64,000 bases of DNA from Pararhodobacter marinus (GTDB taxonomy: Bacteria > Pseudomonadota > Alphaproteobacteria > Rhodobacterales > Rhodobacteraceae), in assembly GCF_003122215.1 (NCBI RefSeq), contig NZ_QEYD01000009.1, forward strand, positions 124,001 to 188,000, written 5' to 3'. The notes beneath the pieces are model-generated. The model had not been told where the DNA came from, did no database searches, and was given only the letters and a program-made list of their open reading frames with translations. The position numbers and the translations under genes were made by a program. Positions 6,757-50,632 of this stretch are shown in pieces. How positions within the stretch are numbered: the stretch's first letter is position 1; the number at the start of each line of letters is the position of its first letter.

Positions 6757-6757
6757 T

Positions 6758-19163: not shown

Positions 19164-19208
19164 ATTCAAATTGTGAATTCCGTTGTTTGATAGATTGTAT
19201 CTATCGAA
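19164..19208 (-). promoter_or_regulatory. Two inverted repeats upstream of fdsG, probable LysR operator
   Basis: In the 110 bp between the LysR gene and fdsG lie two dyads: ATTCA-AATTG-TGAAT (19164-19178) and, at 19186-19208, arms TTTGATAGA and TCTATCGAA around TTGTA with one mismatch in 9. Both fit the loose T-N11-A style of LysR-family sites. The first is 50 bp from the fdsG start, so it may overlap the promoter. Confidence 0.55.
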
Positions 19209-22590: not shown

Positions 22591-22748
22591 CGGGAAACCT
22601 GTGGATCTGTCGAAATCGGGAAACCCGCGCGCGACGGCGCCCGGGCAAGGGTCCGGGGAATATCGTTTGCATGTGAAACAAGTCAAGGCAGCAGCCGAGG
22701 TTTTCGTACCCCGTCTCCGCGGCGCGTCAATTTCCGCGCATCGCCGCT

Positions 22749-24362
22749 TCAGACCCGGCGGTCGGCCCGGATCATGTCGGCGGCCTTTTCGGCGATCATG
22801 ATCGCGGGGGCATTGGTATTGCCCGAGACGATACGCGGCATGATCGAGGCATCGACCACCCGCATCCCGCGCAGCCCGTTAACCCTGAGCGCGGGATCGA
22901 CCACGGCAGCCCCGTCCGTGCCCATCGCGCAGGTCCCGACCGGGTGATACACGGTGCGCGCGTGGCGGCGCAGATAGGCGCGCAGGCCGGGTTCGTCCGT
23001 GACAGCCTCGCCCGGGATCACCTCGGTCAGGCCGTGCCGCGCCATCGGGTCTTGCCGCAGGATCCGCCGGGCAAGGGCGATGCCCCGGAGCAGCCGCTCG
23101 GTATCGCTGTCGGCCTGCAACAGGCCCAGATCGACCTGCGGGCGCCCCTCGGGGCCTGAGCGCGTCACCGAGCCCCGGCTGTCGGGGCGAAGCACGCAGG
23201 TATGCACCGACACGCCATGCCCCCATTCCACCATCCGCCCCCGGTGGCTTTTCAGTCCGGGAATCAGGTGGAACTGGATATCCGGGCGCGGCTCGGCGGG
23301 CGATGAGCGCACGAAGCCCCCCGCCTCGACCATGTTCGATGCGAACATGCCGCGCGACCGGGTGACCCAGTTCAGCAGATCCAGCGCCCGGCGCGGCAGC
23401 GCGGGCAGCGAGACGCCATAGGCCGCGCGGCTCTGCGTGCGGCAGATCACCATGCAATCCACATGGTCCTGCAGATTGCGTCCGACACCCGGCAAATCGT
23501 GCACGGGCGCGCCGCCCCAGCCCGCGATCTCGTCAGCCGGGCCGATCCCAGAGCGCAGCAGGATGTCGGGCGACCCGATGGCGCCCGCCGACAGGATGAT
23601 CTCGCCCGCCGCCGCGATCCGCATGATCGTTCCATCCGCCCGGCGCCCGAGGACCGCCGTGGCGCGACGGTCGGTGATCTCGATCCGCTCAACCTCGATC
23701 CCGGTTTCGATGCGCAGATTGGGCCTTCCACGCACCGGCTTCAGGAAGGCTTCGGCGGTCGAGTGGCGTTTGCCCCCTTTCTGCGTGACCTGGTAGAGGC
23801 CCATGCCCTCGGGTTCGGGCGTGTTGAAATCGGCGCAGGCGCCCAGTTGCAATTGCCCGGCCGCGTCCAGGAAATCGGCATCCACGGGCGAGGGGTCGCG
23901 CAGGTCCGATACCGAAAGCGGGCCGTCGCGTCCGTGATAGGCATCGTCGAGCGCGGGGTCCGAATTGGCCTCGGACTTGCGGAAATAGGGCAGGACCGAG
24001 TCGTAATCCCAGCCCGTGCAGCCCATCGCCGCCCAGTCGTCGTAATCCGCGCGGTGGCCCCGGATATAGATCATCCCGTTGATCGCCGACGACCCGCCCA
24101 GCACCCGCCCGCGCGGGATCGAGATCCGGCGCCCGTCCAGCGCGGCCTGCGGGGTCGAGGCATAGAGCCAGTTGTGGCGCCGGTCCTTCGTCAGCACCAT
24201 CACTCCCAGCGGAACGCGGATCAGCGGGCTGCGGTCCCGTGGCCCGGCCTCAATCAGGCAGACGCGGGTGGCTGGGTCCTCGCTCAGCCGGTGGGCCAGC
24301 ACGGCGCCGGACGATCCCGCGCCGACGATGACGTAATCGAAGTGTGGTGTCTCAGCCGTCAC
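22749..24362 (-). CDS. GMC-family FAD-dependent alcohol dehydrogenase/oxidase
   Basis: Glucose-methanol-choline oxidoreductase (537 aa, GTG start at 24362 behind GGAGGAG). The FAD dinucleotide motif GAGSSG is at residues 14-19, then the GMC signature GRVLGGSSAINGMIYIRG, a second signature (GEIILSAGAIGSPDILLRSGIGP) and the C-terminal active-site stretch HPVGTCAMG to VSGNTNAPAIMIAEKAADMI. It looks like choline-dehydrogenase or long-chain/aromatic alcohol dehydrogenase members. It is divergent from the SARP-like regulator; the 17-bp repeat at 24431 lies 68 bp upstream of this start, in the same orientation and at similar distance as the copy in front of the P450 gene. That suggests joint control with the P450 operon. 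Confidence 0.92.
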   Translation of the reverse strand: MTAETPHFDYVIVGAGSSGAVLAHRLSEDPATRVCLIEAGPRDRSPLIRVPLGVMVLTKDRRHNWLYASTPQAALDGRRISIPRGRVLGGSSAINGMIYIRGHRADYDDWAAMGCTGWDYDSVLPYFRKSEANSDPALDDAYHGRDGPLSVSDLRDPSPVDADFLDAAGQLQLGACADFNTPEPEGMGLYQVTQKGGKRHSTAEAFLKPVRGRPNLRIETGIEVERIEITDRRATAVLGRRADGTIMRIAAAGEIILSAGAIGSPDILLRSGIGPADEIAGWGGAPVHDLPGVGRNLQDHVDCMVICRTQSRAAYGVSLPALPRRALDLLNWVTRSRGMFASNMVEAGGFVRSSPAEPRPDIQFHLIPGLKSHRGRMVEWGHGVSVHTCVLRPDSRGSVTRSGPEGRPQVDLGLLQADSDTERLLRGIALARRILRQDPMARHGLTEVIPGEAVTDEPGLRAYLRRHARTVYHPVGTCAMGTDGAAVVDPALRVNGLRGMRVVDASIMPRIVSGNTNAPAIMIAEKAADMIRADRRV

Positions 24363-24524: not shown

Positions 24525-26024
24525 ATGGCCACGCTGCCCGAGTCGACCGCCCAGCACGAGATCAACGCCGCGCTCTTTTGCGGCTTTTCCGACCGGGACT
24601 TCATGGTCCGGTCGCTGGCGGCGTGGCCCGAAGGCCGGCTGCTGATCACCGACGACCCGCAGCTTCTGCCCGAGATCCCCGCCGCGCAACGGCTGGCCTA
24701 TGCCGGGCTGGGGGTGCAGACGCTGCCCTTCGATCCCGAACACGCGCTCGCCAGGCTGCGCGAGGCGCTGGGCGGGCGCGACGGCGTGCAGGCGGTTCTG
24801 ATCGACATGAGCTGGGCCCTGGTGGCGATGATGGGCGTGGCGGCGGTCGAGCATTGGGGCAACCTGGCCGAGCGTATCGGAGCCGAGACGGGGCTTGCGG
24901 TGGTCTCGCTCTACAACCGGCAAAGGCTGATCGAGGAACAGCTTCAATCCGCCTTTCGCGCGCATCAGCAGTTCCTTGCGCCCAGCGGGCTTTATGAAAA
25001 CCCCTACTGGATGCCACGCGAATTGCTGCGTGAATCCACCTTGGACGAGCAGCTTGGCTTCATGCTGGGACGGGTGGTGCCCGATTTTGCCGGGCAGAGC
25101 TTTTTCCGCACTTTCGACAAGGCCGCCGCGCGCGGGGCGTCCCCCGACTGGGTGGACCAATCCGCGCCGCTTCTGGCCATGCCGGGGCAACGCGATCGGT
25201 GGCATATCCATTGCCTGGGTCCGCTGCGTGTCTTCGTCGAAGGCTACCGCGAGGTCGACTGGCAGACCGCGGGCAGTGCGCCGCGCAAGACCAAGACCCT
25301 GTTCGCCTATCTGCTGAACGCGGGCGAAAAGGGGGCCCATGCCGACCAGATCGGCGAGTTGCTGTGGCAGGGGACAGAATCGGAGAAGACCAAGCGCGCG
25401 CGGCTGCACCACACCGTCGCGATGCTGCGCAAGACGCTGGGCAGCGCCGATGCCGTCTTGCGGATGGGCGATTACTACCGGCTGAACGTCCCGCCCGGAA
25501 GCCTTGTGGATATCACCACCTTCGAACAGCTTTGCCGCCGCGCCCTGTCGCTGGCCCGGCACGGCAAGGAGGACGCGGCCTTCGCGGTCTATTTCGAGGC
25601 CGAGCGGCTTTATGCGGGCGATCTCTTCGCGGATCTGCCGCTCGATTACCTCGCCACCGAAACCGAGGACTGGATCATGCCGCGCCGCACATGGCTGCGC
25701 GAAATGGCGATGCGCGTGCTCTACGACCTGTCGAAACTGCTGCGGCGCTACCGTCGCCATGCCGAGGCGCTGCACTGGTCGCAAAAGGCCATCGCGATGG
25801 ATCCGACCAGCGAGGCCGCCAATGCCGAAGCGATGCGCGTGTTCCACGCGATGGGTCGCCCCGCGGCGATGCACCGCCAGTATCGGCAATACCGCAAGGC
25901 CATGGCCAGTCTGGGCGAAGACAGGGAAGGCGTTGAAATCAGGGCGGTTTATGACGAGCTGTGCCGCTCTCTGGACCGCCTCACGCCCGGCCAAAGAAAA
26001 ACCAAAGAACTGGCCATACGCTGA
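24525..26024 (+). CDS. SARP-type transcriptional regulator with sensor-like N-terminus
   Basis: Regulator of 499 aa. Residues 227-320 form an OmpR/SARP-type winged helix (WHIHCLGPLRVFVEG, APRKTKTLFAYLLN, GELLWQG, HHTVAMLRKTLG). Residues about 335-495 form a bacterial transcriptional activator domain of TPR-like helices (YFEAERLYAGDLFADLPLDY, LLRRYRRHAEALHWSQKAIAMDP). The N-terminal 190 residues (AALFCGFSDRDFMVRSLAAW, LITDDPQLLPE) resemble a MEDS/RecA-like sensory domain as in DcmR-type regulators; this is tentative. Such fusions are known but uncommon outside actinobacteria. The gene stands between two identical operator-like 17-mers, the second inside its last codons. It is likely the activator of the GMC and P450 transcription units. 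Confidence 0.85.
   Translation: MATLPESTAQHEINAALFCGFSDRDFMVRSLAAWPEGRLLITDDPQLLPEIPAAQRLAYAGLGVQTLPFDPEHALARLREALGGRDGVQAVLIDMSWALVAMMGVAAVEHWGNLAERIGAETGLAVVSLYNRQRLIEEQLQSAFRAHQQFLAPSGLYENPYWMPRELLRESTLDEQLGFMLGRVVPDFAGQSFFRTFDKAAARGASPDWVDQSAPLLAMPGQRDRWHIHCLGPLRVFVEGYREVDWQTAGSAPRKTKTLFAYLLNAGEKGAHADQIGELLWQGTESEKTKRARLHHTVAMLRKTLGSADAVLRMGDYYRLNVPPGSLVDITTFEQLCRRALSLARHGKEDAAFAVYFEAERLYAGDLFADLPLDYLATETEDWIMPRRTWLREMAMRVLYDLSKLLRRYRRHAEALHWSQKAIAMDPTSEAANAEAMRVFHAMGRPAAMHRQYRQYRKAMASLGEDREGVEIRAVYDELCRSLDRLTPGQRKTKELAIR
25991..26007 (+). promoter_or_regulatory. Operator-like 17-mer, copy 2 (upstream of the P450 operon)
   Basis: CCAAAGAAAAACCAAAG, two CCAAAG half-sites 11 bp apart, the perfect reverse complement of 24431-24447. 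It lies within the last codons of the regulator gene, 79 bp before the P450 start. Relative to the gene it would control, orientation is the same as for the GMC gene. Confidence 0.7.
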
Positions 26025-26086: not shown

Positions 26087-27337
26087 ATGGAAACGATGGA
26101 CGGCATTTTGCCGTCGGACGGCTTTGATCCGTTCGACCTGAACCGGCCTCATGCCCGGTGGGAACAGTTCCGCAAGGAAGAGCCGATTTTTTATCACGAG
26201 CCTAGCGGTTACTGGGTCGTGTCCCGTTTCGACGACATCAAGGCGATCTTCGACGACTGGAAGACCTTCAGCTCGGAGAACGCGCAGAAACCCATGCGGC
26301 CGATGTCGGAGGCCGGGCGGCAGATTCTGAAAGAGGGGGGCTTCACGGCCTATTCCGGCCTGACCGCCCGGGTCCCGCCCGACCACACCCGCATCCGCAA
26401 GGTCGCGCAATCGTGCTTCGGCCCGCGCCGCTTCAAGTCGATCGAGCCGCAGATCGAAGAGATCGTGAAGACCCATCTCGACAAACTAGAAGCGGCGGGC
26501 CGCGACGGCAAGCCCGTCGATTTCTGGGACATCGTCGCCTACCCGGTGCCCGCGCATGTGCTGTTCACGCTGATGGGCATCCCCGACAGGGACGTGCCGA
26601 AGATCAAGCAATACGGCGCCAGCCGGGGCAAGATGACGTGGTCGGACCTGTCGGACGAGGAAATGATCCCCGTCGCGCATGACATGGTAGCCTACTGGCA
26701 ATACATCCACGACCTTCTGGACATGCGCCGCGACGCGCCGGGCGACGATTTCCCCTCGGATCTTTTGCGGCTTCAGGCCGAAGGCGCCGACATCTCCAAC
26801 GAGGAGATCGCGGGCGTCCTGTACTCGACGCTGTTCGCGGGGCACGAGACAACCTCGACCTTCATGGGCAATTACGTCATCGCGATGATGCAGAACCCCG
26901 AGGCCTGGGACGCGATCAAGGCCGATCCGTCGCTCATTCCCAACGCGGTCGAAGAGATGCTGCGCTATATGCCGTCGGTCGTGGGCTGGCGGCGCAAGGC
27001 TCGGACCGAAGCCGTGGTTGGCGGCGTCCGGCTGCCCGCCGGCGCCGAGGTGCTGATGATCACCGGCTCGGCCAACCGTGACGAATCGCAGTTCCCCGAT
27101 GGCGAAAAGCTGGACATCACCCGGCAGAATGCCCGCACGCATCTGAGCTTCGGCTACGGGATCCATTACTGCCTTGGTTTCCAGCTGGCCAAGATGGAGG
27201 GCGCGGTCTTGCTGCGGCAATTGTCCGAGCGCTTCCCCGACCTGTGCCTCGCGCCGGGATTCGAGGCCGAGTACCACCGCAACATCACCTTCCGCGTCCC
27301 GACCTCGGTGATGGTGCAACTGGGTGGCGCGGCATGA
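26087..27337 (+). CDS. Cytochrome P450 (CreJ-like context)
   Basis: Soluble bacterial P450 (416 aa) lacking a membrane anchor. I-helix oxygen-activation motif AGHETTS at 251-257, ExxR pair E290/R293, heme-binding FGYGIHYCLG with the thiolate ligand Cys362. The start is set by GGGAGGAT 6 bp upstream; an open frame continues to 25961 but has no support. First gene of an eight-gene operon that also encodes a [2Fe-2S] ferredoxin (33783), its likely electron donor; no ferredoxin reductase is in the window. By neighbours, it would oxidise the alkyl side chain of a phosphorylated phenol, as CreJ does in Corynebacterium glutamicum. This is inference; the sequence alone does not give the substrate. 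The stop overlaps the next start as ATGA. Confidence 0.93.
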   Translation: METMDGILPSDGFDPFDLNRPHARWEQFRKEEPIFYHEPSGYWVVSRFDDIKAIFDDWKTFSSENAQKPMRPMSEAGRQILKEGGFTAYSGLTARVPPDHTRIRKVAQSCFGPRRFKSIEPQIEEIVKTHLDKLEAAGRDGKPVDFWDIVAYPVPAHVLFTLMGIPDRDVPKIKQYGASRGKMTWSDLSDEEMIPVAHDMVAYWQYIHDLLDMRRDAPGDDFPSDLLRLQAEGADISNEEIAGVLYSTLFAGHETTSTFMGNYVIAMMQNPEAWDAIKADPSLIPNAVEEMLRYMPSVVGWRRKARTEAVVGGVRLPAGAEVLMITGSANRDESQFPDGEKLDITRQNARTHLSFGYGIHYCLGFQLAKMEGAVLLRQLSERFPDLCLAPGFEAEYHRNITFRVPTSVMVQLGGAA

Positions 27338-28404
27338 AGACCGACGGCAGGTACACGCTGAGCTTCGATGCGATCGGCAAGCACGATCTGGCGCGGGTCG
27401 GCGGCAAATGCGCCTCGCTGGGCGAGATGACGCAGGCAGGAGTCGCGGTGCCGCCGGGTTTTGCCGTGACGACCGACGGCTATCTGGCAATGCTGGAACA
27501 GACCGGGCTCAGGGCCGAGATCGAGCGCCATCTGCACGGCGTCGATCCCGAGGATTTCGACGCGCTGGACCGCGCGGCGCAGGCGATCCGCATCCGTATC
27601 CGCGGCCACAGGATCCCGTCCGAGGTCGAGGCCGCGATCCGCGATGCCTATGCCTCGATGGGCGGGGATACGCCCGTCGCCGTGCGCTCGTCCGCCACGG
27701 CCGAGGACCTGCCGGATGCCAGCTTCGCGGGCCAGCAGGACACCTATCTGTGGGTGCGGGGCGCGGACGCGGTGGTCGAGAAGGTGCGCGATTGCTGGGC
27801 CTCGCTGTTCGCCACCCGTGCCGTCGCCTACCGCGAAAGGAACCGCATCCCCCATGCCGACGTGAACATGAGCGTGGGCGTGCAGAAGATGGTCAACGCG
27901 CGCGCTGCCGGGGTGGCGATGTCGCTGGACCCGGTCAATGGAGACCGCACGCGGATCGTCATCGATGCCAGCTGGGGGTTGGGCGAAATGGTCGTCTCGG
28001 GTGTCGTGACGCCCGACAATTACAGCGTCGAGAAGGTTCTGATGGAGATCATCGACCGCAAGATCAGCGACAAGCATGTCGAGCTGATCGGCGATGCCGA
28101 GCGGGGCGAAACCGTCGAGCGCGAGGTCGACGAGGCCCGCCGGGCGACGCCTTGCCTGAGCGATGCGCAGGTGATCGCCGTGGCGCAGCTTGCCAAGCGG
28201 CTGGAGAAACAGAATGGCTGTCCGCAGGACGTGGAATGGGCCATCGACGCCGATCTGCCCGACGGCGAGAACCTGCTGGCGCTGCAATCGCGCCCTGAAA
28301 CCATCTGGTCGCAGAAGAAGAAGGACAAACCCCGCAACCCCTACGCGACCGGAATGATGAGTATCGTCGGAACCTTGAACAATCCCTACGGCTCGAAGCG
28401 CTGA
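27334..28404 (+). CDS. ATP-binding subunit of a phenylphosphate-synthase-like phosphotransferase
   Basis: Protein of 356 aa equal to the N-terminal ATP-grasp half of PEP synthase: GGKCASLGEMTQAGVAVPPGF, then AVRSSATAEDLPDASFAGQQ, ASWGLGEMVVSG and the closing DVEWAIDADLPDGENLLALQ followed by SRPET. Phenylphosphate synthase beta (PpsB) of Thauera and one partner of the CreHI pair have this stand-alone layout. It would use ATP to charge the His of the next subunit. The ATG overlaps the P450 stop. There is no phosphohistidine domain in this chain, as expected for a split enzyme. The gene is intact. Confidence 0.88.
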   Translation: MKTDGRYTLSFDAIGKHDLARVGGKCASLGEMTQAGVAVPPGFAVTTDGYLAMLEQTGLRAEIERHLHGVDPEDFDALDRAAQAIRIRIRGHRIPSEVEAAIRDAYASMGGDTPVAVRSSATAEDLPDASFAGQQDTYLWVRGADAVVEKVRDCWASLFATRAVAYRERNRIPHADVNMSVGVQKMVNARAAGVAMSLDPVNGDRTRIVIDASWGLGEMVVSGVVTPDNYSVEKVLMEIIDRKISDKHVELIGDAERGETVEREVDEARRATPCLSDAQVIAVAQLAKRLEKQNGCPQDVEWAIDADLPDGENLLALQSRPETIWSQKKKDKPRNPYATGMMSIVGTLNNPYGSKR

Positions 28405-28452
28405 GCGCGGGCCGAAGGGGCGAGTATCTGTGCCATTCAGGGAGGATCGAGA

Positions 28453-30264
28453 ATGGACGCGCAAACGCCGCTGTTTCCCAGCGCCTATGACATGAAGGCG
28501 CCGGCCGGCGCCGAAGGCTGGGAAAGCATCTATCCTTATTACGTGCTGTTCAGACCCGAGAAACGCGCCGAGGAGGACGGCAAGTTCTGGTTCTGCAACA
28601 GCCAGCACTGGCCGACGCCTTTCCGTCCCTTCGATACGATCATGGTCGATTTCGCCACCAAGGGGCTGGGCCAGTACAACACCCGTCACCTGCTGGTACC
28701 GCCCGCCAATGGCGTCGATTACCGCATCCTGAACGGCTACGTCTATTTCTCGCCCATCGGTGTCGCGCCCGAGGATATCGAGGCCCGGATCCCGCAATTC
28801 CTGGAGCGGGCGGGTCATTACTACATGAATTGGGACGCGTTGCTGGCCAACTGGAAGACCAAGGTCATGGCGGCGATCGAAGAGCTCGACGCGATCCAGT
28901 TCGAACCGTTGCCCGAGGTGGTCGATGTCGATTGGGTGAAAGAGGGCAGGGGGCTCGACAACACCTATGATCTGTTCAACCGCTACGACGACGCGATCCG
29001 GCTGTGCTACAAGATCTGGCAATACCATTTCGAGTTCCTGAACCTCGGTTACGCGGCCTATCTGGATTTCTTCGGCTTCCTGAAAGGCGAGTTTCCGCAG
29101 ATCCCCGATCAGGCCATCGCGAAGATGGTTCAGGGCGTCGACAGCGAGCTGTTCCGCCCCGATGACGAGCTGAAGAAGCTGGCGAAGCTGGCGGTGGAAA
29201 AGGGTCTGTCGCCCGTGTTCGAGAGCGACCATGTCGACGTGATCCTGGCCGATCTGGCGACGAAGCCCGGCGGCAAGGAATGGCTGGCCGCGTGGGAGGA
29301 AGCCAAGGATCCGTGGTTCAATTTCACCAGCGGCAACGGGTTCTATTCGACCGACAAGTACTGGATCGACCATCTCGACATCCCGATGACCTATCTGAAG
29401 GACTACATCAAACGCATCGAGGCGGGCGACGAGATCATGCGCCCGACCGACAAGCTGCTGGCCGAGCGGGACCGCATCACCGCCGAATACCGCGAAATGA
29501 TGGATGACGAGGCGCAGGCGGTCTTCGATCAGAAGCTGGGCCTGTCGCGCACCGTGTTCCCCTATGTCGAGGACCACAATTTCTACATCGAGCATTGGGC
29601 GCTCGGTGTGTTCTGGCGCAAGATGCGGCAGCTTTCGAAGCTGCTCATGGATCAGGGCCTGTGGGACAGCGAGGACGGCATGTTCTTCCTGTCGCGCAAC
29701 GAGGTCCGCGACGTGCTGTGGGATTACTCTGCCGCCTGGGCCATCGGTACCAGTCTTCAGGGCGCGACCCACTGGCCGGAAGAGATCCGCCGCCGCCGTG
29801 GCATCGTCGATGCGCTGGCCTCGCAATCGCCGCAGCCCGCGCTCAACAACCCGCCCGAGGTCATCACCGAACCCTTCACCATCATGCTCTGGGGCATCAC
29901 CAGCGACTCGATCAAGCGCTGGGTGGGCGAGGGCTCGACCGATGGCGCGCTGCACGGCATGGCCGGGTCGCCCGGTGTGGTCGAGGGCGTCGCGCGCGTG
30001 CTGCGCTCGCCCGACCAGCTGGGCGAGCTGCAGAAGGGCGAGATCCTTGTCACCCCCGTGACCGCGCCGTCCTGGGCGCCGGTCTTCGGCAAGATCGGCG
30101 CGGCGGTCACGGATATCGGCGGGATGATGAGCCACGCGGCCATCGTCTGCCGGGAATACGGCCTGCCCGCCGTCACCGGCACCGGCAATGCCTCGTCGCG
30201 GATCAAGACGGGGATGCGGGTGCGCGTGGACGGCAATGCCGGCACCGTGACGATCCTTGAATGA
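28453..30264 (+). CDS. Phosphohistidine subunit of a phenylphosphate-synthase-like phosphotransferase
   Basis: Protein of 603 aa. Residues 1 to about 500 form a large domain, presumably for the phosphoryl acceptor, with many aromatic residues (YYVLFRPEKRAEEDGKFWF, YKIWQYHFEFLNLGYAAYL). The C-terminal 100 residues are the mobile phosphohistidine domain of PEP-utilising enzymes (GMAGSPGVVEGVARV, GGMMSHAAIVCREYGLPAV) with catalytic His561. Phenylphosphate synthase alpha has the same length and architecture. Partnered with the ATP-grasp subunit upstream it would phosphorylate a hydroxyl group, plausibly a phenol. A good GGAGG site precedes the ATG. The usual PEP-synthase pyruvate-binding barrel is absent, which argues against central-carbon function. 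Confidence 0.87.
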   Translation: MDAQTPLFPSAYDMKAPAGAEGWESIYPYYVLFRPEKRAEEDGKFWFCNSQHWPTPFRPFDTIMVDFATKGLGQYNTRHLLVPPANGVDYRILNGYVYFSPIGVAPEDIEARIPQFLERAGHYYMNWDALLANWKTKVMAAIEELDAIQFEPLPEVVDVDWVKEGRGLDNTYDLFNRYDDAIRLCYKIWQYHFEFLNLGYAAYLDFFGFLKGEFPQIPDQAIAKMVQGVDSELFRPDDELKKLAKLAVEKGLSPVFESDHVDVILADLATKPGGKEWLAAWEEAKDPWFNFTSGNGFYSTDKYWIDHLDIPMTYLKDYIKRIEAGDEIMRPTDKLLAERDRITAEYREMMDDEAQAVFDQKLGLSRTVFPYVEDHNFYIEHWALGVFWRKMRQLSKLLMDQGLWDSEDGMFFLSRNEVRDVLWDYSAAWAIGTSLQGATHWPEEIRRRRGIVDALASQSPQPALNNPPEVITEPFTIMLWGITSDSIKRWVGEGSTDGALHGMAGSPGVVEGVARVLRSPDQLGELQKGEILVTPVTAPSWAPVFGKIGAAVTDIGGMMSHAAIVCREYGLPAVTGTGNASSRIKTGMRVRVDGNAGTVTILE

Positions 30265-30270
30265 CTTCAA

Positions 30271-30292
30271 GGGGGCCGTTCCGGCGGCCCCC
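30271..30292 (+). other. GC-rich hairpin inside the P450 operon
   Basis: GGGGGCCG and CGGCCCCC pair perfectly around the loop TTCCGG, 6 bp after the phosphohistidine-subunit stop and 26 bp before the first HD gene. No T-run follows. It may protect the upstream mRNA segment or partly reduce downstream expression. Confidence 0.6.
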
Positions 30293-30318
30293 CGACTGTC
30301 CCGCCTGCGGAGTTTCCG

Positions 30319-30915
30319 ATGCCTGCCGACCTGTCGCGCTATGATGCCGTCTGGCGCGCCGCCGAACCCTACATGCGCGCGCGCAAGAACGATGTGCATA
30401 TCCCGCTGTCCTTCGCGTGGTGCGTGAAATTGCTCGACCATTTCCCCGAGGCCGACCGCGATGTCTGCCTGCTGGCGATCCTGCTGCACGATATCGGCTG
30501 GTGGGCCATCGACATGGACGAGATCCTCGAGCAGGGGTTCCGGTCCGGGAATATCCTGCAATCCGATGTCCGCTACCGGCACGAGGCCGAAGGCGTGCGG
30601 CTGGGAACCGAAGTGCTGCAACAAACTGGCTGGTCCGACGCCATCATCGCGCAGGTCTGCGAGATCATCGACGGCCACGATACCCGCCCCGAACCCCGCC
30701 ATCTGAACGACCGCATCGTGCGCGACAGCGACAAGCTGTGGCGCTACGAGGTGACGGGCACCGCCGTGGGCTGCGACTGGTTCGGGGAGACGCCGGTCCA
30801 GAACTGCGACCGCAACGAAAAGGTGCTGCCGAAATTCGAAACCGAACCGGGCCGCGCCATGGCCGAGGCCGAGCTGGCCAGGACCCGCGCGCTTTTGCTG
30901 GCGCATCTGCTTTAG
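30319..30915 (+). CDS. HD-domain phosphohydrolase 1 (CreD-like role)
   Basis: Single HD domain of 198 aa. Metal-binding residues in order: His27, His57-Asp58 (LLHDIGWW), His88 (YRHEAEG), His120-Asp121 (DGHDT) and Asp138 (DSDKLW). HD proteins are metal-dependent phosphohydrolases. Lying directly after the two phosphotransferase subunits, it would fit removal of the phosphate group after side-chain oxidation, the job of CreD in the Corynebacterium pathway. It is similar in length and motif spacing to the second HD protein at 32359, suggesting duplication and specialisation. Start preceded by GGAG. Confidence 0.85.
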   Translation: MPADLSRYDAVWRAAEPYMRARKNDVHIPLSFAWCVKLLDHFPEADRDVCLLAILLHDIGWWAIDMDEILEQGFRSGNILQSDVRYRHEAEGVRLGTEVLQQTGWSDAIIAQVCEIIDGHDTRPEPRHLNDRIVRDSDKLWRYEVTGTAVGCDWFGETPVQNCDRNEKVLPKFETEPGRAMAEAELARTRALLLAHLL

Positions 30916-30925
30916 GGGGCTGCGG

Positions 30926-32362
30926 ATGGAGATGTTCATCGACGGTCTGTCTGTCCCTGCCCGGTCGGGCCGGCGCATGACGGTCACCGACCCGACGACG
31001 GGGCAGGCGTTCGAGACCGTGCCCCTGGGCGGGTCCGAGGATGCTGATGCCGCCATCGTCTCGGCCATGCGGACCTTCGAAGGCTGGAAGCGCGTGCCGA
31101 TGACCGAGCGCGCGCGGCTGCAGAAAGCCTGCGCACAGGCGATGCGCGAGAACGCCGAGAGCATCGGCGCGGTCCTGCAGCGTGAACTGGGCCGCCCGCT
31201 GGCGGGGTGCGTGAGCGAGATCGCGCGCTCGGCCGACCTGCTCGACATCTATGCCGAAGAAGGATTGCGCCTTCGGGCGGCGATGCCGCTTGGATCGGCC
31301 CCGGGCGAGCGGATCGTCATCACCCGCGACCCGGTGGGCGTGGTCGTGGCGATCACGCCTTTCAACTACCCGATCACGCTGTTGATGTTCAAACTCGGCG
31401 CGGCGCTGATCGCCGGCTGCCCGGTCGTCGCCAAGCCCAGCGAGGAAACGCCGCTCTCGACCCTGATGCTGGCCCGGCTGTTCCACGACACGGGTCTGCC
31501 CGCGGGCCTGTTCAACGTCGTCACCGGCGACCGCGCGCTGGGCGAGGCGCTGGTCGCGCATCCGGTGCCGCGCAAGGTGGCGTTCACCGGCTCGGTCCCG
31601 GCGGGCAAGGCCATCGCCGCCGCCTGCGCGGGCACGATGAAGCGCGTCACGCTGGAGCTGGGCGGGCATTCGGCGGCCATCGTCTGCGCCGATGCCGATC
31701 TGGACCGCGCCGCGGCTGCCATCACCCGGCACGGCTTCGCCAATTCCGGGCAGTTCTGCTACCGCGTCAACCGCGTCTATATCGAGCGCCCGGTCTACGA
31801 CGCGATGCTGGAGCGGCTCGCCGCTGGGGCCAAGGCGCTGACGCTGGCCCCGGCGGGCGGGCAGGGGGATCTGGGCCCGCTGGTCAACGACCGCATCTTC
31901 GCCAACAGCGAAAGCCAGATCGCCGACGCCCGGGCGAAGGGCGCGCGTATCCTGACAGGCGGTACGCGGGCCACGGGGCCGGGCTATGACGCTGGCTGCT
32001 ACCTGCCCCCCACGCTGATCGCCGAGGCCACGCCCGAGATGCTGATCATGCAGGACGAGACCTTCGGCCCGGTCATCGGCCTCGCCCCGGTCGACAGCCC
32101 CGCCGAGGCGCTGCGGCTGACCAACGAGTCACGCTTCGGGCTGGCTGGTTTCGTCTTCACCCGCGATCTCGCGACGGGGCTGGCGCTGTGCGAAGGGATC
32201 GAGGCCGGGTCGGTCTGGCTCAACGATATCCGGCGCTCCAGCCATCATGTGCCCTTCGGCGGCATGAAGGAAAGCGGCCTTGGTCGCGAGAAGGGGCGCT
32301 ACGGCGTCGAAAGCTACCTTGAATACAAGACGATGTATCTGAGCTGGGAGGAAGCGCTGTGA
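30926..32362 (+). CDS. NAD(P)-dependent aldehyde dehydrogenase
   Basis: Aldehyde dehydrogenase (478 aa). Catalytic Cys278 in NSGQFCYRVNRVY, general base Glu244 in VTLELGGHSA, nucleotide-binding residues in TPFNYPITLLMFKLGAAL and VAFTGSVPAGK, and the C-terminal VPFGGMKESGLGREKG. It belongs to the succinate-semialdehyde/benzaldehyde-type branch by general look. In the operon it would oxidise the aldehyde made from the P450 product by the SDR (role of CreC). It sits between the two HD genes. The stop overlaps the next start (GTGA). Confidence 0.93.
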   Translation: MEMFIDGLSVPARSGRRMTVTDPTTGQAFETVPLGGSEDADAAIVSAMRTFEGWKRVPMTERARLQKACAQAMRENAESIGAVLQRELGRPLAGCVSEIARSADLLDIYAEEGLRLRAAMPLGSAPGERIVITRDPVGVVVAITPFNYPITLLMFKLGAALIAGCPVVAKPSEETPLSTLMLARLFHDTGLPAGLFNVVTGDRALGEALVAHPVPRKVAFTGSVPAGKAIAAACAGTMKRVTLELGGHSAAIVCADADLDRAAAAITRHGFANSGQFCYRVNRVYIERPVYDAMLERLAAGAKALTLAPAGGQGDLGPLVNDRIFANSESQIADARAKGARILTGGTRATGPGYDAGCYLPPTLIAEATPEMLIMQDETFGPVIGLAPVDSPAEALRLTNESRFGLAGFVFTRDLATGLALCEGIEAGSVWLNDIRRSSHHVPFGGMKESGLGREKGRYGVESYLEYKTMYLSWEEAL

Positions 32363-33015
32363 CCCCCGACGAAACCTTTCTGCCCCGCGACCTGCCGCTT
32401 TGGCACGAGGCCCGGCCCTATCTCGACGTGCGCAACAACGACGAACACACGATCGTCGCCTATGGCCTTGCGCGCGCGCTTCTGGCGCAGATCCCCGAGG
32501 CCGACGACAGCGTCGTCCTGCCCGCCATCGTGCTGCATGACGTGGGCTGGAAACGCATCCCCGAGGACCTGCTGCTGCTGGCCATCGGGCGCAATCCCAC
32601 ACGCAAGGACCTGGTCCGCGAACACGAGCTGCACTCGGTCGAAATCGCGCGCGGGATCCTTGAAAAGCACCGGCCCGAGGGCGTGGATATCGACGCGGTT
32701 CTGGCGGTGATCGACGGCCACGACACGGTGAAAGAGGCCAAGGATATCAACGACGCGGTGATGAAGGATGCCGACAAGGGCTGGCGTACCACGCCGCACG
32801 GGATGCGCACCATCGCGGGCTGGTACGACGTGCCGGTGACCGAGATCCTGCACATGCTGCGCGAGCGGTCGAACCCGCTCATGCTGACCCCGCAGGGCCG
32901 CGCCATGGCCGAGGCGAACACAGCCGCCGTCTGGGCCGAGGAATCGATCCGCCGCTATCTGGGCCACGGCCCGACCTATACCCGCCTGAAACCCAGCGAA
33001 GGATCCGGATCGTGA
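32359..33015 (+). CDS. HD-domain phosphohydrolase 2
   Basis: Second HD-domain protein, 218 aa, GTG start in a GTGA overlap with the aldehyde dehydrogenase stop. Metal residues: His30, His60-Asp61 (VLHDVGWK), His89/His92 (REHELHSVE), His121-Asp122 (DGHDT), Asp139 (DADKGW). Shares motif order and the YxxxRNND start region with HD protein 1 (YMRARKND against YLDVRNND) but has a different C-terminus ending in GPTYTRLKPSEGSGS. Possible roles are phosphatase for a second intermediate, or for removing wrongly phosphorylated compounds. Coupled to the SDR downstream. Confidence 0.83.
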   Translation: MTPDETFLPRDLPLWHEARPYLDVRNNDEHTIVAYGLARALLAQIPEADDSVVLPAIVLHDVGWKRIPEDLLLLAIGRNPTRKDLVREHELHSVEIARGILEKHRPEGVDIDAVLAVIDGHDTVKEAKDINDAVMKDADKGWRTTPHGMRTIAGWYDVPVTEILHMLRERSNPLMLTPQGRAMAEANTAAVWAEESIRRYLGHGPTYTRLKPSEGSGS

Positions 33016-33773
33016 CCGAGATAAGCCTGAACGGAAACCGCGTCCTCGTCACCGGCGCCGGGGCGGGGCTGGGCCGCGCCTTTGCGCAGGCCTTTGCCGG
33101 GGCCGGTGCGCGGGTCGTGGCGGCCGACATCAATCGCGCCGGGGCCGAGGAAACCGCCGCCCTCATCGTCGAGCAGGGCCACGAAGCCGTCGCTGCCGAG
33201 GTCGATGTGACCAAAACCGCCTCGTGCCGGGCGCTGGTGGAAACGGCGCAGAGCGCGCTGGGCGGGATCGACACGCTGGTCAATAACGCCGCGCTCTATG
33301 CCGGGCTCGAACGACGCCCCTTCGAACAGATCGACGAGGATGTCTGGGACCGGGTCATGGCGGTGAATATCAAGGGCGTCTGGCAGATGACCCGCGCGGT
33401 ATCGGGCGCGATGCGCGCGGGCGGCGGCGGCTCGATCGTCAATATCGCTTCGGCCACGGTGTTTTCGGGCTCGCCGATGTGGATGCACTACGTCGCCTCG
33501 AAAGGCGCCGTCATCGCCATGAGCCGCACCATGGCGCGCGAGATGGGGCGCGACGGGATCCGCGTCAATGTCATCGCGCCGGGCTTCACCCTGACCGAGG
33601 CGAGCCTCTCGCTGATCGAGGATGCGGCGGCCTACGGCATCGACCGCGCCGCGCTCAGGCGCAACGCCGAGACCGGAGACATCACCGGCGGCGCGCTGTA
33701 TCTTGCGTCGTCCCTGTCCTCGTTCGTGACCGGTCAGACGCTGGTCATCGACGGCGGCAAGCAATTCATCTGA
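33012..33773 (+). CDS. Short-chain dehydrogenase/reductase
   Basis: Classical SDR (253 aa, GTG start overlapping the HD2 stop). Cofactor motif TGAGAGLG at 14-21, Asp39 at the end of strand beta-2 favouring NAD(H), NNAA at 91-94, catalytic Ser147, Tyr160 and Lys164 (YVASK), and the C-terminal VTGQTLVIDGGKQFI. By operon position it would oxidise the alcohol made by the P450 to the aldehyde (role of CreG). The GMC enzyme outside the operon could do a similar step. A ribosome site for the ferredoxin follows within 10 bp. Confidence 0.92.
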   Translation: MTEISLNGNRVLVTGAGAGLGRAFAQAFAGAGARVVAADINRAGAEETAALIVEQGHEAVAAEVDVTKTASCRALVETAQSALGGIDTLVNNAALYAGLERRPFEQIDEDVWDRVMAVNIKGVWQMTRAVSGAMRAGGGGSIVNIASATVFSGSPMWMHYVASKGAVIAMSRTMAREMGRDGIRVNVIAPGFTLTEASLSLIEDAAAYGIDRAALRRNAETGDITGGALYLASSLSSFVTGQTLVIDGGKQFI

Positions 33774-33782
33774 GAGGGATCC

Positions 33783-34103
33783 ATGGTCAAAGTCACCTTC
33801 ATCGAGGAAAACGGCACGAAGCGCGAGATCGACGCGGTGCCCGGCGACCCGCTGATGTATGCGGCCCGCGACGCGGGCGTCGAAGGGATCATCGCGGAGT
33901 GCGGCGGCTCCGCGATGTGCGCGACCTGCCATTGCTACCTGCTCGAGGCGCCCAACGGTCCCTTGCCCAAACCGCAGCCGGCCGAGGCCGACACGCTGGA
34001 ATTCATGGCCAACGAACCGCGCGCGGTATCGCGGCTGACCTGCCAGGTCACCGTGACCGAGGCGCTGGAGGGCGCGGTGTTCCAGGTGGCGACAGGGCGC
34101 TGA
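33783..34103 (+). CDS. Adrenodoxin/putidaredoxin-type [2Fe-2S] ferredoxin
   Basis: Ferredoxin of 106 aa with the vertebrate-type cluster motif: Cys40, Cys46 and Cys49 in ECGGSAMCATCHCYL, and Cys87 in RLTCQV. This class donates electrons to bacterial P450s (putidaredoxin, CreE), so it is the natural partner of the P450 that opens the operon. The matching NAD(P)H ferredoxin reductase must be encoded elsewhere. Last gene of the operon. Downstream, 34104-34250 holds only weak GC-rich hairpins (CGCCCG/CGGGCG at 34127-34147; GGCGCC twice at 34201-34222) that may end this and the convergent operon. Confidence 0.93.
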   Translation: MVKVTFIEENGTKREIDAVPGDPLMYAARDAGVEGIIAECGGSAMCATCHCYLLEAPNGPLPKPQPAEADTLEFMANEPRAVSRLTCQVTVTEALEGAVFQVATGR

Positions 34104-34250: not shown

Positions 34251-36248
34251 TCAGGCCGAGACGCGCGCCGCGGCGAAATCGGCGAACCAGTCCAGCGCGG
34301 CGGGGTTCTTCGTCGCGTCGCGGCTTGCCACCTTGTCCACCGGCTGACCCAGCAGCAGCTTGCGCACCGGGACCTCCATCTTCTTGCCGGTCAGGGTGGT
34401 CGGGATCTCGGGCGCTTCGACGATCTCGTCGGGGACGTGGCGCGGGCTGCGTTCCGAGCGCAGGCGCTTGACGATCTCGGCGCGCTTGGCGTCGTCGAGC
34501 GCAGCGCCCGGGTGCATCTGCACGAAAAGCGGCATGTAATAGCCGCCCTTGCCGTCCTCGATGCAGATGATCAGGCTGTCGGCCACGCCCTCGATCCCCT
34601 CCATCGTGCGATAGATCTCGGCCGAGCCGATGCGCACGCCGAACCGGTTGAGCGTGGCGTCCGAACGGCCCAGCACGTAGCTGCCGCCCCGCGCGTTGAA
34701 GCGCACGCGGTCGCCATGGCGCCAGATGCCGGGATAGGTGTCGAAATAGCTGTCCTCGTAGCGCGCGAAATCCTCGTCGCCCCACAGAAACAGCGGCATC
34801 GAGGGCATCGGCTTGCGGATCACCAGCTCGCCCACCTCGTCGATCACGACCTTGCCGTCTTCATCGAAGGCGCAGGCGTCGCAGCCCAGCGCGGGCGCCT
34901 GGATCTCGCCGGCGCGCACGGGCAGCAGGATCGTGCCCGCGAGGATGCCGCCGCAAACTTCGGTGCCGCCCGATTGCGTGGTCGCGAACAGGTCTTTCTT
35001 CACGCCCTCATGGATCCAGGCGAGGATCTCGGGCGTGGCGGGCGAGCCGGTCAGGAACATGCTTTTCAGCGCCGAGAGGTCGTAGTCCCTCCCCGGCACG
35101 ATGCCTTGCTGGCGCACCATCGTCATGAAGGTGGGCGAGACGCCGAAATGGCTGACCCTGGTGGCTTCGATGATCCGCCAGAGCGCGCCCGCATCGGGGT
35201 AGGTCGGGTGTCCGTCATAGAGCGTGGCCTGCCCGTTCAGAAGCGGGCCGTGCATCAGCGTGTTCCAGACCATCCAGCCGGTGGTGGAATAGCAGAAATA
35301 CGTGTCGCCAGCGCCCAGATCGAGCCCGAAGGCCGCGTTCTTCAGATGCTCCAGCACGATGCCGTGATGCGAATGCACGATCGGTTTGGGCAGGCCCGTC
35401 GTCCCCGAGGAGAACAGCGTCCAGAGTGGGTGGTCCGAGGCGACGCGCTCGAAGGTGAAATCCTCGCGCGCGACCTCGGGCCCGCCAAGCATCGCGTCCC
35501 AGTCGATCACCTCGCCGTGGAACTCGGGCGCCTTCGCCGCGCCGGGCAGGTAATCGAGCATCACCAGTGTCGTCGCGCTCGGCAGGTGCGACAGGATCCG
35601 GCTCAGATCGCCGGTGCGGTCGAAATCCTTGCCGCCGTAGCGGTAGCCGTTGACCGCGAAGACCAGCTTGGGCTCGATCTGGCTGAAGCGGTCGATCACC
35701 GTCTGCGGCCCGAATTCGGGCGCCGCCGTGGCCCAGGTCGCGCCAAGGGACGTGGCGGCCAGCATGGCGATCACGGTTTCGGGGATGTTGGGCATGTAGG
35801 CGACGACACGGTCGCCCTTGGTCACGCCCATCTGGCGCAGGCGGGTGGCGAGCTTGCGCACCTGTCCGCCGACCTCGGCCCAGGACATCGCCGCGAGCGG
35901 GCGGGTTTCCGAGCAATGATGCAGCATCACGCGGGACGGATCGCCGGTGGCTTCGTGGCGCAGGACCTGTTCGGCGAAGTTCATCCGCGTGCCGGTGAAC
36001 CAGCGGGTGCGGGGCATGGGGTCGCTGGTGACGACCTCTTGCAAGTCGCCGTCCATCTCGATGCCGAAGAAGTCGCGCACGGCCTGCCAGAACCCGTCAA
36101 GATCGGTGACCGACCAGTGATGAAGCGCGGCGTAATCGTCGAAGACATGGCCCCGTTCGGCCAGGAAAGCGAGAAAATCGGTGACGACGGCTTTTGACAG
36201 CCGGTCGTCCGATGCTTGCCAGAGAATATCGCCTTCGGTGACCATCAT
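34251..36248 (-). CDS. aacS: Acetoacetyl-CoA synthetase (acetoacetate-CoA ligase)
   Basis: AMP-forming acyl-CoA synthetase (665 aa) of the acetoacetyl-CoA synthetase type. It has the N-terminal ACAS region (FWQAVRDFFGIEM, RWFTGTRMNFAEQVL), the ATP motif FSSGTTGLPKPIVHS at about 279-293, the adenylate motif ATTQSGGTEVCGG and the C-terminal catalytic Lys in TLTGKKMEVPVRKLL. It converts acetoacetate, or a related beta-keto acid, to the CoA ester. Last gene of the BCCP-AccC-carboxyltransferase-HAD operon, overlapping the HAD stop (ATGA). In that setting its substrate could be the product of the carboxylase. Confidence 0.92.
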   Translation of the reverse strand: MMVTEGDILWQASDDRLSKAVVTDFLAFLAERGHVFDDYAALHHWSVTDLDGFWQAVRDFFGIEMDGDLQEVVTSDPMPRTRWFTGTRMNFAEQVLRHEATGDPSRVMLHHCSETRPLAAMSWAEVGGQVRKLATRLRQMGVTKGDRVVAYMPNIPETVIAMLAATSLGATWATAAPEFGPQTVIDRFSQIEPKLVFAVNGYRYGGKDFDRTGDLSRILSHLPSATTLVMLDYLPGAAKAPEFHGEVIDWDAMLGGPEVAREDFTFERVASDHPLWTLFSSGTTGLPKPIVHSHHGIVLEHLKNAAFGLDLGAGDTYFCYSTTGWMVWNTLMHGPLLNGQATLYDGHPTYPDAGALWRIIEATRVSHFGVSPTFMTMVRQQGIVPGRDYDLSALKSMFLTGSPATPEILAWIHEGVKKDLFATTQSGGTEVCGGILAGTILLPVRAGEIQAPALGCDACAFDEDGKVVIDEVGELVIRKPMPSMPLFLWGDEDFARYEDSYFDTYPGIWRHGDRVRFNARGGSYVLGRSDATLNRFGVRIGSAEIYRTMEGIEGVADSLIICIEDGKGGYYMPLFVQMHPGAALDDAKRAEIVKRLRSERSPRHVPDEIVEAPEIPTTLTGKKMEVPVRKLLLGQPVDKVASRDATKNPAALDWFADFAAARVSA

Positions 36249-37102
36249 GCCCTCTCCTCGGTCTTTGTCCGCCTCGCGAACCAGGGCTGGTCGGCGAAGC
36301 CTTCGAGTGACGCGAGCACCACTTGCGCGCGTTCGTCAGAGGGGTACCCTTTGAACCCGTCGGCGTCCACTACCCCGGTGGTGACGCCGACGCAAAACGC
36401 CCCCGCCCTGCGGCCCATGCGGATTTCCAGCTTCGGGTCGTCGCCGACGATGACCATTTCCTCGGGGCGCGCGCCGGTCAGCGCGCTGACGATGTCCAGC
36501 CCCGCCGCTTCGGGCTTGCCGAAGACGGTGACGGGCACGCCGGTGGCATTGGTCAGCGCGGCGGCGATGGCGCCCGAAATGCCCAGCAGCTTCTTGCCGC
36601 CCGCGCCCGCGAAATAAGGCGCGACCGAGCCCGCATAGGGTTTCGCGCCGTTCCACACGGCCTGCACCACCGCCTCGACCTGCTCGGCGTTGAAATCCTT
36701 GCACCAGCCCAGCAGCACGGCATCGACCTTGGGCGCGTCCTTGGTGGGGGCGATGACCTCGATCCCGGCCTCTTCGACGGGGACGGTCGTGCCCTCGGCG
36801 CCCATCACCATGAGGCGCGTATAACCCATGGCCCTGAGCGCGCGGGCCGCGACGGCGGCGGGGGTCAGGACGTGACCGGGCTCAAGCACCAGGCCAGCCT
36901 CGGCCAGCGCCGGATAATAATGCGCGGGCGGAAAGAAGGTGCCGTTGGTATAGGCCACGACGGGCAGGCCCATCGCCTTGCAATCGGCCAGCGCCTGCAC
37001 GGCGCCGGGCAGGGCGGTATAGGTGCCCTTTTCCTTGTCCATCAGCGCCAGCGTGCCGTCGATGTCGAAGACCACGGCCTTGATCGGGTGCGTGTGCATC
37101 AC
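36245..37102 (-). CDS. HAD-superfamily phosphatase (NagD / 4-nitrophenylphosphatase type)
   Basis: HAD class IIA hydrolase of 285 aa: nucleophile motif FDIDGTL (Asp13, Asp15), the Thr/Asn loop VAYTNGT, Lys in FGKPEAAG and the acidic motif VGDDPKLEIRMG, with a C2-type cap between. Relatives hydrolyse phosphoglycolate, nucleotides or aryl phosphates. Its substrate here is unknown. It is unusual to find such an enzyme between a carboxyltransferase and an acyl-CoA synthetase, coupled to both by ATGA overlaps. Confidence 0.88.
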   Translation of the reverse strand: MMHTHPIKAVVFDIDGTLALMDKEKGTYTALPGAVQALADCKAMGLPVVAYTNGTFFPPAHYYPALAEAGLVLEPGHVLTPAAVAARALRAMGYTRLMVMGAEGTTVPVEEAGIEVIAPTKDAPKVDAVLLGWCKDFNAEQVEAVVQAVWNGAKPYAGSVAPYFAGAGGKKLLGISGAIAAALTNATGVPVTVFGKPEAAGLDIVSALTGARPEEMVIVGDDPKLEIRMGRRAGAFCVGVTTGVVDADGFKGYPSDERAQVVLASLEGFADQPWFARRTKTEERA

Positions 37103-39917: not shown

Positions 39918-39921
39918 GGGA

Positions 39922-40374
39922 TCAGGCCGGGCGGACGCGGATCAGGCACTGGCCATGCTCGACCAGCTCGCCATTGGGCGCGGCAATTTCCGTCACCGTG
40001 CCGGCGATGCCCGCCTCGACCGAGTTCATCAGTTTCATGACCTCGATGATGCCGATCACCGTGTCGGCCTGTACCGTGTCGCCCGGCTTGACGAAGGGAG
40101 CGGCGCCGGGGCGGGGGGCGTGCCAGAAGGTGCCCAGCAGCGGGGCCGGAACCTCGGTCCCGCCGCTCTCGGGCGCGATGGGCGCCGCCACCGGCTCGGA
40201 CGTTTTCGCGGCTGCGGGCGCGGGTGCAGGGGCGGCCACCGGCGCGGACGGGTTCGCCCCCCGGCGCCGCAATTCCAGCTTCAGATCGCCCATCTCAAGC
40301 TTCAGTTCATCGAATTCCGATCCGTCGACCAGCTTCAGGATCTCGTCGATATCGGCGCGTGTCAGCTCTGCCAT
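39922..40374 (-). CDS. Biotin carboxyl carrier protein
   Basis: Carrier protein of 150 aa: an N-terminal helical region (MAELTRADIDEILKLVDGSE), a Pro/Ala-rich linker at about 41-75 and a C-terminal biotinyl domain with the modification site EVMKLMNSV, Lys114. The thumb region typical of AccB (PLLGTFWHAPRPG) is present. The start at 40374 has a GGAGG site; the longer open frame to 40449 runs across the operator. First gene of the carboxylase operon. Confidence 0.9.
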   Translation of the reverse strand: MAELTRADIDEILKLVDGSEFDELKLEMGDLKLELRRRGANPSAPVAAPAPAPAAAKTSEPVAAPIAPESGGTEVPAPLLGTFWHAPRPGAAPFVKPGDTVQADTVIGIIEVMKLMNSVEAGIAGTVTEIAAPNGELVEHGQCLIRVRPA

Positions 40375-40441
40375 AGGCTCCTCCCGTTTGACCGGAAGAC
40401 TAGAGGCGAGGCGGCTTCGACGACAATCTGGCGGCGCCGAA

Positions 40442-40460
40442 GGTTTCACATGGTGAAACC
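40442..40460 (-). promoter_or_regulatory. Perfect palindrome, candidate IclR operator
   Basis: GGTTTCACATGGTGAAACC: arms GGTTTCAC and GTGAAACC around ATG. It lies between the IclR-family gene stop and the BCCP gene, 67 bp before the BCCP start, which is a fitting place for a repressor or activator of the carboxylase operon. Confidence 0.65.
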
Positions 40461-50623: not shown

Positions 50624-50632
50624 GGGACGTCC

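Follow-up and report, generated by a model that had tools for sequence, protein, structure and literature searches.

We analysed a 64,000-nucleotide stretch of the Pararhodobacter marinus genome (contig 30, bases 124001-188000, hereafter the window; host genome 4.49 Mb), in which eight genes at 26087-34103 on the forward strand almost certainly form, as judged from their sequences, a proteobacterial counterpart of the phosphate-directed alkylphenol oxidation (Cre) system of Corynebacterium glutamicum. Protein families were assigned by Pfam and NCBIfam profiles. The first gene (26087..27337) encodes a CreJ-type cytochrome P450 of 416 amino acids (aa), belonging to the group termed class A below, with 5xjn/7ccf and 5gwe as nearest structures. 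It is followed by the two parts of a dikinase, a CreI-type ATP-grasp subunit of 356 aa (27334..28404; PPDK_N, 380 bits) and a CreH-type substrate/swivel subunit of 603 aa (28453..30264; NF006150, 995.3 bits, cut-off 650). The remaining genes encode a CreD-type HD phosphohydrolase of 198 aa (HD1, 30319..30915; Pfam HD, 32.3 bits, cut-off 22), a CreC-type aldehyde dehydrogenase (ALDH) of 478 aa (30926..32362; Aldedh, 485 bits), a second HD phosphohydrolase of 218 aa (HD2, 32359..33015; HD, 27.6 bits, cut-off 22), a CreG-type short-chain dehydrogenase (SDR) of 253 aa (33012..33773; adh_short_C2, 201.5 bits) and a CreF-type [2Fe-2S] ferredoxin of 106 aa (33783..34103; Fer2, 41.2 bits, cut-off 21). 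The first-pass annotation had listed this gene set with its two kinase subunits and His561, and indeed all eight frames are intact and His561, within the motif GGMMSHAAIV, is invariant in 7/7 aligned orthologues. Its statement that most genes are joined by 4-bp overlaps has to be corrected, as such overlaps are present at only three of the seven junctions (P450/ATP-grasp, ALDH/HD2 and HD2/SDR), the other four being gaps of 48, 54, 10 and 9 bases. The same His/Asp positions are kept in both HD families (HD1, n = 89; HD2, n = 64). Scans for promoters and terminators gave no signal exceeding that of shuffled sequences.

Two neighbouring elements had been overlooked. The first is a gene for a BTAD-type transcriptional regulator of 499 aa (24525..26024, forward strand; Pfam BTAD, 56 bits, cut-off 22.1), which lies 62 bases upstream of the P450 gene on the same strand. 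In a comparison of the upstream neighbours of 88 loci, BTAD homologues were found upstream of the cluster in 47, and actinobacterial loci mostly carry an IclR-like gene instead; by this comparison the BTAD gene is part of the conserved unit. The second is a convergent operon on the reverse strand (34251-41270), ending 147 bases past the ferredoxin gene. It encodes, in the direction of transcription, an IclR-type regulator of 269 aa (40461..41270; HTH_IclR, 45.8 bits, cut-off 22), an HpeC-like biotin carboxyl carrier of 150 aa (39922..40374; TIGR00531, 116.8 bits with the longer frame scored, cut-off 115.2), an HpeA-like biotin carboxylase of 452 aa with three biotin-carboxylase Pfam domains (38559..39917), an HpeB-like carboxyltransferase of 487 aa (37099..38562; PYC_OADA, 110.5 bits), an HpeD-like HAD-IIA phosphatase of 285 aa (36245..37102; Hydrolase_6, 56.5 bits, cut-off 27; TIGR01460, 83.6 bits, below the cut-off of 100.15) and an HpeE-like acyl-coenzyme A (CoA) ligase of 665 aa (34251..36248; TIGR01217 acetoacetate--CoA ligase, 711 bits, cut-off 520.9).

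The gene content of this operon, with a three-subunit biotin carboxylase, a NagD-like HAD phosphatase and a CoA ligase together, equals the set hpeC, hpeA, hpeB, hpeD and hpeE given in Table 1 of PMC9618137. A similar module accompanied by its own kinase is present in Rhizobium leguminosarum (plasmid pRlBT01c, locus L126) and, unannotated, in Rhodococcus sp. JS3073 (L127). The window proteins are 48% and 40% (carrier), 63% and 49% (carboxylase), 64% and 48% (carboxyltransferase) and 41% and 33% (phosphatase) identical to those of L126 and L127, respectively, and the ligase and the regulator are 55% and 54% identical to their L126 counterparts. PDB 9goj, presumably the HpeI structure of PMC12167813, shares 97.4% identity with the L127 ATP-grasp subunit and is also the top solved match of the window ATP-grasp subunit (290.5 bits). 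From its sequence, the operon looks like a hydroxyphenylethanone (Hpe) module without a kinase: the dedicated kinase HpeHI is absent from it, and no hpeF-like hydrolase was recognised in the family scans made around it.

The assignment of the eight genes to the Cre type, already proposed in the first-pass annotation, is based on the NF006150 subfamily, the P450, the position of the kinase in a tree and a gene content that equals creC-creJ minus the reductase (gene list creJ-I-H-G-F-E-D-C of C. glutamicum as given in PMC7764795). NF006150 matches 4/390 genomes of the order and, among 14 well-known control genomes, C. glutamicum alone. A quickly built tree of 44 kinase rows, in which the outgroup branches are long, separates the window and 39 other Cre-type rows (support 98) from the four remaining ones: one of PpsA type, two of HpeH type and one haloarchaeal. 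A serine precedes the catalytic histidine of the window kinase, as reported for CreH and PpsA and not for HpeH (PMC12167813). Searched against solved structures, the P450 matched 5xjn/7ccf with 431.6 bits (3.5e-128) and 5gwe with 430.3 bits (8.9e-128), and the next structure followed with only 250.6 bits (2.9e-73), 181 bits below 5xjn. The structure tables label these entries just 'Cytochrome P450', and we take them to be CreJ. This identity fits, since in 32 actinobacterial loci the cluster P450 has a median identity of 68% to the 5gwe/5xjn chain, compared with 48% over 398 positions for the window P450. A true phosphoenolpyruvate (PEP) synthase or rifampin phosphotransferase was considered and rejected: PRK08296-type families match the 603-aa subunit from end to end, and solved enzymes of the two rejected kinds align essentially to its swivel domain, the last ~110 residues. 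The kinase subunits thus keep the Cre/Pps relation that the first-pass annotation had made the touchstone of its proposal. The window cluster has no ferredoxin reductase (CreE) gene; a single, near full-length reductase homologue with 42% identity is encoded on contig 25, away from any P450, and may, judged by this similarity, serve the cluster ferredoxin.

The cluster is conserved among relatives. The eight genes are found in the same order in five of the six relatives mapped first, with 55-97% identity, and the sixth (L031) has seven of them, its ferredoxin being without a match; since the same order recurs, the cluster is not a chance arrangement. Two members of the genus in the named-genome collection, Pararhodobacter aggregans and Rhodobacter sp. 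NTK016B, have large kinase subunits with 80% and 96% identity; in Pararhodobacter aggregans the Cre genes and the Hpe genes are on different contigs. For a wider survey, named genomes were scanned with an alignment of seven orthologues and the best 80 of at least 501 relatives were taken; genes were counted by tblastn at 1e-6, and the counts are minima, since loci on contigs that end early are included. Besides Actinomycetota, Cre-type clusters were found in Alphaproteobacteria, Bacteroidota and Chloroflexota. The P450 and HD1 are each present in 78 of the 80 loci, ALDH in 76, SDR in 75, the ferredoxin in 60, HD2 in 59 and the ferredoxin reductase in 50. The second HD gene and the missing reductase gene, which had been regarded as distinguishing marks, are therefore no such marks, because HD2 also occurs in some of the actinobacterial loci and the reductase gene is present in other Rhodobacteraceae. 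What sets the locus apart may rather be the adjoining kinase-less Hpe-like module together with the distinct P450 class.

Gene order was compared in the 67/80 loci whose sequence extends 2.6 kb or more upstream and 5.5 kb or more downstream of the kinase. The window order P450-I-H-HD1-ALDH-HD2-SDR, with or without ferredoxin and ferredoxin reductase genes, was found in 35. The order P450-I-H-SDR-ferredoxin-reductase-HD1-ALDH, which corresponds to creJ-I-H-G-F-E-D-C, was found in 22, the same order with HD2 placed before SDR in eight, and other orders in two. Over the 80 loci ALDH directly follows HD1 76 times and SDR directly follows HD2 49 times; as these pairs survive rearrangement, each phosphatase may act beside its dehydrogenase, and what the second phosphatase does is thereby open to a direct test. 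A tie of HD2 to the Hpe module was not supported, Hpe genes lying within the flank of 12/80 loci only, far fewer than carry HD2. Some loci deviate. L083, from an alphaproteobacterial bin, has the BTAD gene and both kinase subunits, and no P450, dehydrogenase or HD gene was found nearby. The archaeal plasmid locus L128 (Haladaptatus salinisoli) carries a two-part kinase of this family near genes for a ring-hydroxylating dioxygenase, an ALDH and a metallophosphoesterase. In the Bacteroidota Cecembia and Nitritalea (L087, L093) a second, distant P450 with 27-29% identity is encoded between the SDR and ferredoxin genes.

The neighbours of related clusters bear on the substrate. Toluene-4-monooxygenase genes adjoin the cluster in 6/80 loci and on two Rhodococcus plasmids, and the flanks of 11/80 contain a pobA-like gene (39-92% identity, two partial), as does L030, where it scores 687 bits with TIGR02360 (cut-off 539). 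Two 63% pobA homologues are present in the window genome, elsewhere than at the cluster. These neighbours speak for a basic family function in which p-cresol is converted to 4-hydroxybenzoate. They also speak against the idea that the natural substrate is neither p-cresol nor 4-ethylphenol but another hydroxylated compound, such as a methoxylated alkylphenol or a non-phenolic alcohol, as do the placement of the kinase among the Cre-type rows of the tree and its serine before the catalytic histidine. The substrate pocket is unreadable from sequence with the tools used and the window carries a DesA/LigM-like O-demethylase gene, albeit one below its family cut-off, so that such a substrate keeps a small share of the probability; we regard it as very improbable.

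The window genome has a single full-length large kinase subunit, that of the Cre cluster; the sole other match, a swivel domain within a frame of 866 aa, was rejected as a second kinase. Kinases and Hpe-like carboxyltransferases were counted in this genome and 24 further genomes with a Cre cluster, 10 of the 25 having been picked because Hpe genes lie beside the Cre genes. The 24 further genomes have one kinase in 22 cases, and two and three copies in two Arthrobacter genomes. The carboxyltransferase is present in 13 of the 25 genomes, that of the window among them, and 11 of the 13 have the Cre kinase alone; in the remaining two, an HpeH-like kinase copy (48-49%) lies 1-3 kb from the carboxyltransferase. 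In the 18 genomes of the genus, a full-length kinase and the carboxyltransferase (88-100% identity) are found in the same four. Among 194 relatives, a carboxyltransferase match of any kind was found in 12: six at 76% identity or more, all with a Cre kinase, and six at 37-40%, without one. A rival explanation is a plain p-cresol Cre cluster beside an unrelated operon, engaged for instance in the carboxylation of acetoacetyl-CoA or another acyl compound. Such an explanation would agree with the absence of Hpe genes from the flanks of 68/80 loci and of the carboxyltransferase from 12/25 genomes searched, and with a ligase and a biotin carrier that pass the cut-offs of ordinary housekeeping families. 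Yet the co-occurrence in the genus holds even where the two sets are unlinked, and the module matches the L126 and L127 operons, which bear their own dikinase; we therefore consider an unrelated neighbour improbable.

The P450 provides a further connection to the Hpe module. At similar kinase identity, the alphaproteobacterial cluster P450s fall into two classes, named from P450 identities prior to the kinase tree test: class A, with 74-93% identity to the window P450, and class B, with 51-62%. Pararhodobacter aggregans has a class A and Yoonia vestfoldensis a class B P450. Class A forms one clade (support 100), with a stem of 0.70 changes per site. No such single clade is formed by the kinases of the class A clusters (approximately unbiased test, p-AU 0.0013), since those of L045, L052, L056 and L060, which have class B P450s, nest among them. 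In 41 clusters, the carboxyltransferase is present in 12 and absent in one of class A, and present in one and absent in 27 of class B. The class A exception, L117, is from a metagenome bin and its contig ends beside the cluster; the class B exception is L080. This count leaves aside L055 (P450 off the contig), L062 (the same record as L031), L066 (genome not covered), L083 (no P450 found), L053 (class B, a second cluster from the L046 bin) and four outgroup rows, and counts L043 and L044 once each, as L027 and L029. Thirteen positions separate the classes; at positions 218, 249, 253, 299, 301 and 340 all 35 B-side rows, including the 5gwe/5xjn chain, share one residue and 12-13 of the 13 class A rows have a different one. 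The Maritimibacter sp. HKST-UBA93 bin contains two Cre clusters, L046 and L053, whose P450s fall into different classes, A in one case and B in the other.

From the observed families, gene order, single kinase, co-occurrence and P450 split we infer the following reactions and substrates, all of them predicted. Most likely, the cluster tags alkylphenols with phosphate and oxidises their side chain, and some of the tagged products are probably passed on to the neighbouring Hpe-like genes in a combined breakdown route. The ATP-grasp and swivel subunits would phosphorylate the phenol via His561, and the CreJ-type P450 would hydroxylate the ring-adjacent alkyl carbon of the aryl phosphate with electrons supplied by the ferredoxin together with a reductase whose gene lies elsewhere. 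With a one-carbon chain, as in p-cresol, SDR and ALDH would produce the acid, the HD phosphatases would strip the phosphate and the resulting 4-hydroxybenzoate would be handed to PobA. A two-carbon chain, as in compounds of the 4-ethylphenol type, would yield a secondary alcohol and from it 4-phosphoacetophenone, with the phosphate still in place and thus a substrate of the Hpe enzymes. The biotin enzyme would then add a carboxyl group to this compound, the HAD phosphatase would take off the phosphate, and the CoA ligase would activate the product so that it can be cleaved. According to published work, homologues phosphorylate phenols via phosphohistidine and HpeD prefers the carboxylated phosphate (PMC12167813, PMC9618137), and HpeCBA is active on 4-phosphoacetophenone and inactive on 4-hydroxyacetophenone (PMC9618137). 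That the locus encodes such a joint pathway, a Cre-type phosphate-directed 4-alkylphenol route whose single dikinase also serves an Hpe-like carboxylation module, has in our estimate about an even chance. Somewhat less probable, and put forward tentatively, is its stricter form, a continuous aerobic pathway: 4-ethylphenol-type compounds would receive one phosphate and carry it through hydroxylation, oxidation and carboxylation until the HAD phosphatase, and no other enzyme, removes it. The distinct P450 class would have evolved for this pathway and would move between clusters irrespective of the kinase.

The oxidation of the secondary alcohol deserves separate mention. In nine relatives the Hpe operon ends with an extra SDR gene, which fits the alcohol-to-ketone step. 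An orthologue elsewhere in the window genome was sought and not found, the best identities being 41-43% and the top match the window's own SDR; without it, the CreG-type SDR or a divergent GMC oxidoreductase would have to carry out this step. The gene of the latter, a conserved neighbour, lies at 22749..24362 on the reverse strand (GMC_oxred_N, 170.6 bits; GMC_oxred_C, 114.3 bits), homologues occur upstream in 15/88 loci, and a function as alcohol oxidase is speculative. Behind it a Bcr/CflA-type major facilitator superfamily transporter gene is present (21400-22686, reverse strand). In L043, L044, L047, L048, L056 and other loci a GMC oxidoreductase gene stands together with genes of an apparent Liv-type ATP-binding cassette (ABC) transporter, named by eye, divergent upstream of the BTAD gene.

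Several points weigh against a joint pathway. ALDH and HD1 are retained though unneeded in the two-carbon branch. The kinase cluster and the Hpe module lie on different contigs in two genomes (G009, G016) and ~57 kb apart in a third (G478). By NCBIfam cut-offs, the ligase also qualifies as an acetoacetate-CoA ligase and the carrier as that of acetyl-CoA carboxylase, and no orthologue of the extra SDR of the nine relatives was found in the window genome. The link between P450 class and Hpe genes amounts to two independent contrasts on supported branches and three on all, mostly in the expected direction and too few for significance, and the class B genomes counted as lacking the carboxyltransferase include metagenome bins. 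Moreover, the class A substitutions were rejected as a general mark of Hpe linkage, since the Hpe-linked P450s of L080, L091, L098 and L100 are without them. Some of these observations would suit two parallel pathways with the kinase alone in common, in which the Cre enzymes convert p-cresol to 4-hydroxybenzoate and the Hpe-like module takes imported 4-hydroxyacetophenone or acetovanillone without being fed by the P450. The two operons are under different regulators (BTAD and IclR) and unlinked in the two genomes named first, ALDH and HD1 persist in class A clusters, and such kinases can be broad, as the phosphorylation rate of HpeHI with cresol is roughly one quarter of that with hydroxyacetophenone (PMC12167813). 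However, the Hpe carboxyltransferase tracks the P450 class and not the kinase lineage, and locus L080 (Rhodobacteraceae NORP153) joins the P450, both kinase subunits, HD2 and SDR in one operon with the carboxylase genes directly following; no ALDH or HD1 was found there, on a contig that ends within the carboxyltransferase gene. On balance we hold parallel pathways to be unlikely, though a serious competitor.

Other genes of the window are noted for completeness. An operon-like run on the reverse strand (47229-57760) comprises a Liv-type ABC transporter, a PaaK-like CoA ligase (53468-54889), a thiolase-like protein (54953-56152) and the O-demethylase gene mentioned above (56234-57760; 497 bits, family threshold 800); the thiolase-like protein might cleave the Hpe product. 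Genes for an NAD-dependent formate dehydrogenase lie at 14132-19165 (reverse strand; alpha subunit TIGR01591, 948 bits, cut-off 666) and type II secretion genes of the gspD, gspE and gspF type at 5548-10122 (reverse strand).

Alkylphenols are pollutants and products of lignin. For p-cresol, a phosphate-directed oxidation is on record from Corynebacterium; for acetovanillone and hydroxyacetophenone, a carboxylation that depends on phosphate has been reported. Should the joint pathway prove true, one tag would serve through both oxidation and carboxylation and provide an aerobic route for 4-ethylphenol-type lignin products, and the P450 class would be a marker of it. In the titles and opening lines of abstracts of a part of the matching literature, neither a joint Cre-Hpe route nor Cre in Rhodobacteraceae was described, and an earlier notice is possible; Fig. 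S5 in the supplement of PMC9618137 shows 'various combinations' of hpe homologues.

Compared with known systems, the locus shares with Cre of C. glutamicum the P450, the ATP-grasp and swivel kinase subunits, the SDR, ferredoxin, HD phosphohydrolase and ALDH, as well as subfamily NF006150, but differs in gene order, the second HD phosphatase, the BTAD regulator, a cluster without a ferredoxin reductase gene, a P450 of a separate class (48% to the CreJ chain) and the adjoining Hpe-like module. PEP synthase and rifampin phosphotransferase have the same ATP-grasp and swivel domains, which in the window sit on separate proteins. PpsAB of Thauera and Azoarcus is likewise a two-part dikinase, and the window large subunit is 47.5% identical to the product of an Azoarcus KH32C gene beside ppcABDG; however, the window kinase stands outside the PpsA/HpeH side of the tree and is flanked by genes for a P450 and dehydrogenases; phenylphosphate carboxylase genes were absent from the neighbouring genes scanned (14132-62452, in part; comparison, L125). 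With Hpe of Rhodococcus rhodochrous GD02 and Acv of Sphingobium SYK-6 the convergent operon shares the three-part biotin carboxylase, the HAD-IIA phosphatase and the CoA ligase, and with the Hpe-like operon of L126 also the IclR regulator; unlike Hpe and Acv, it has no kinase of its own, and the genome holds the Cre pair alone.

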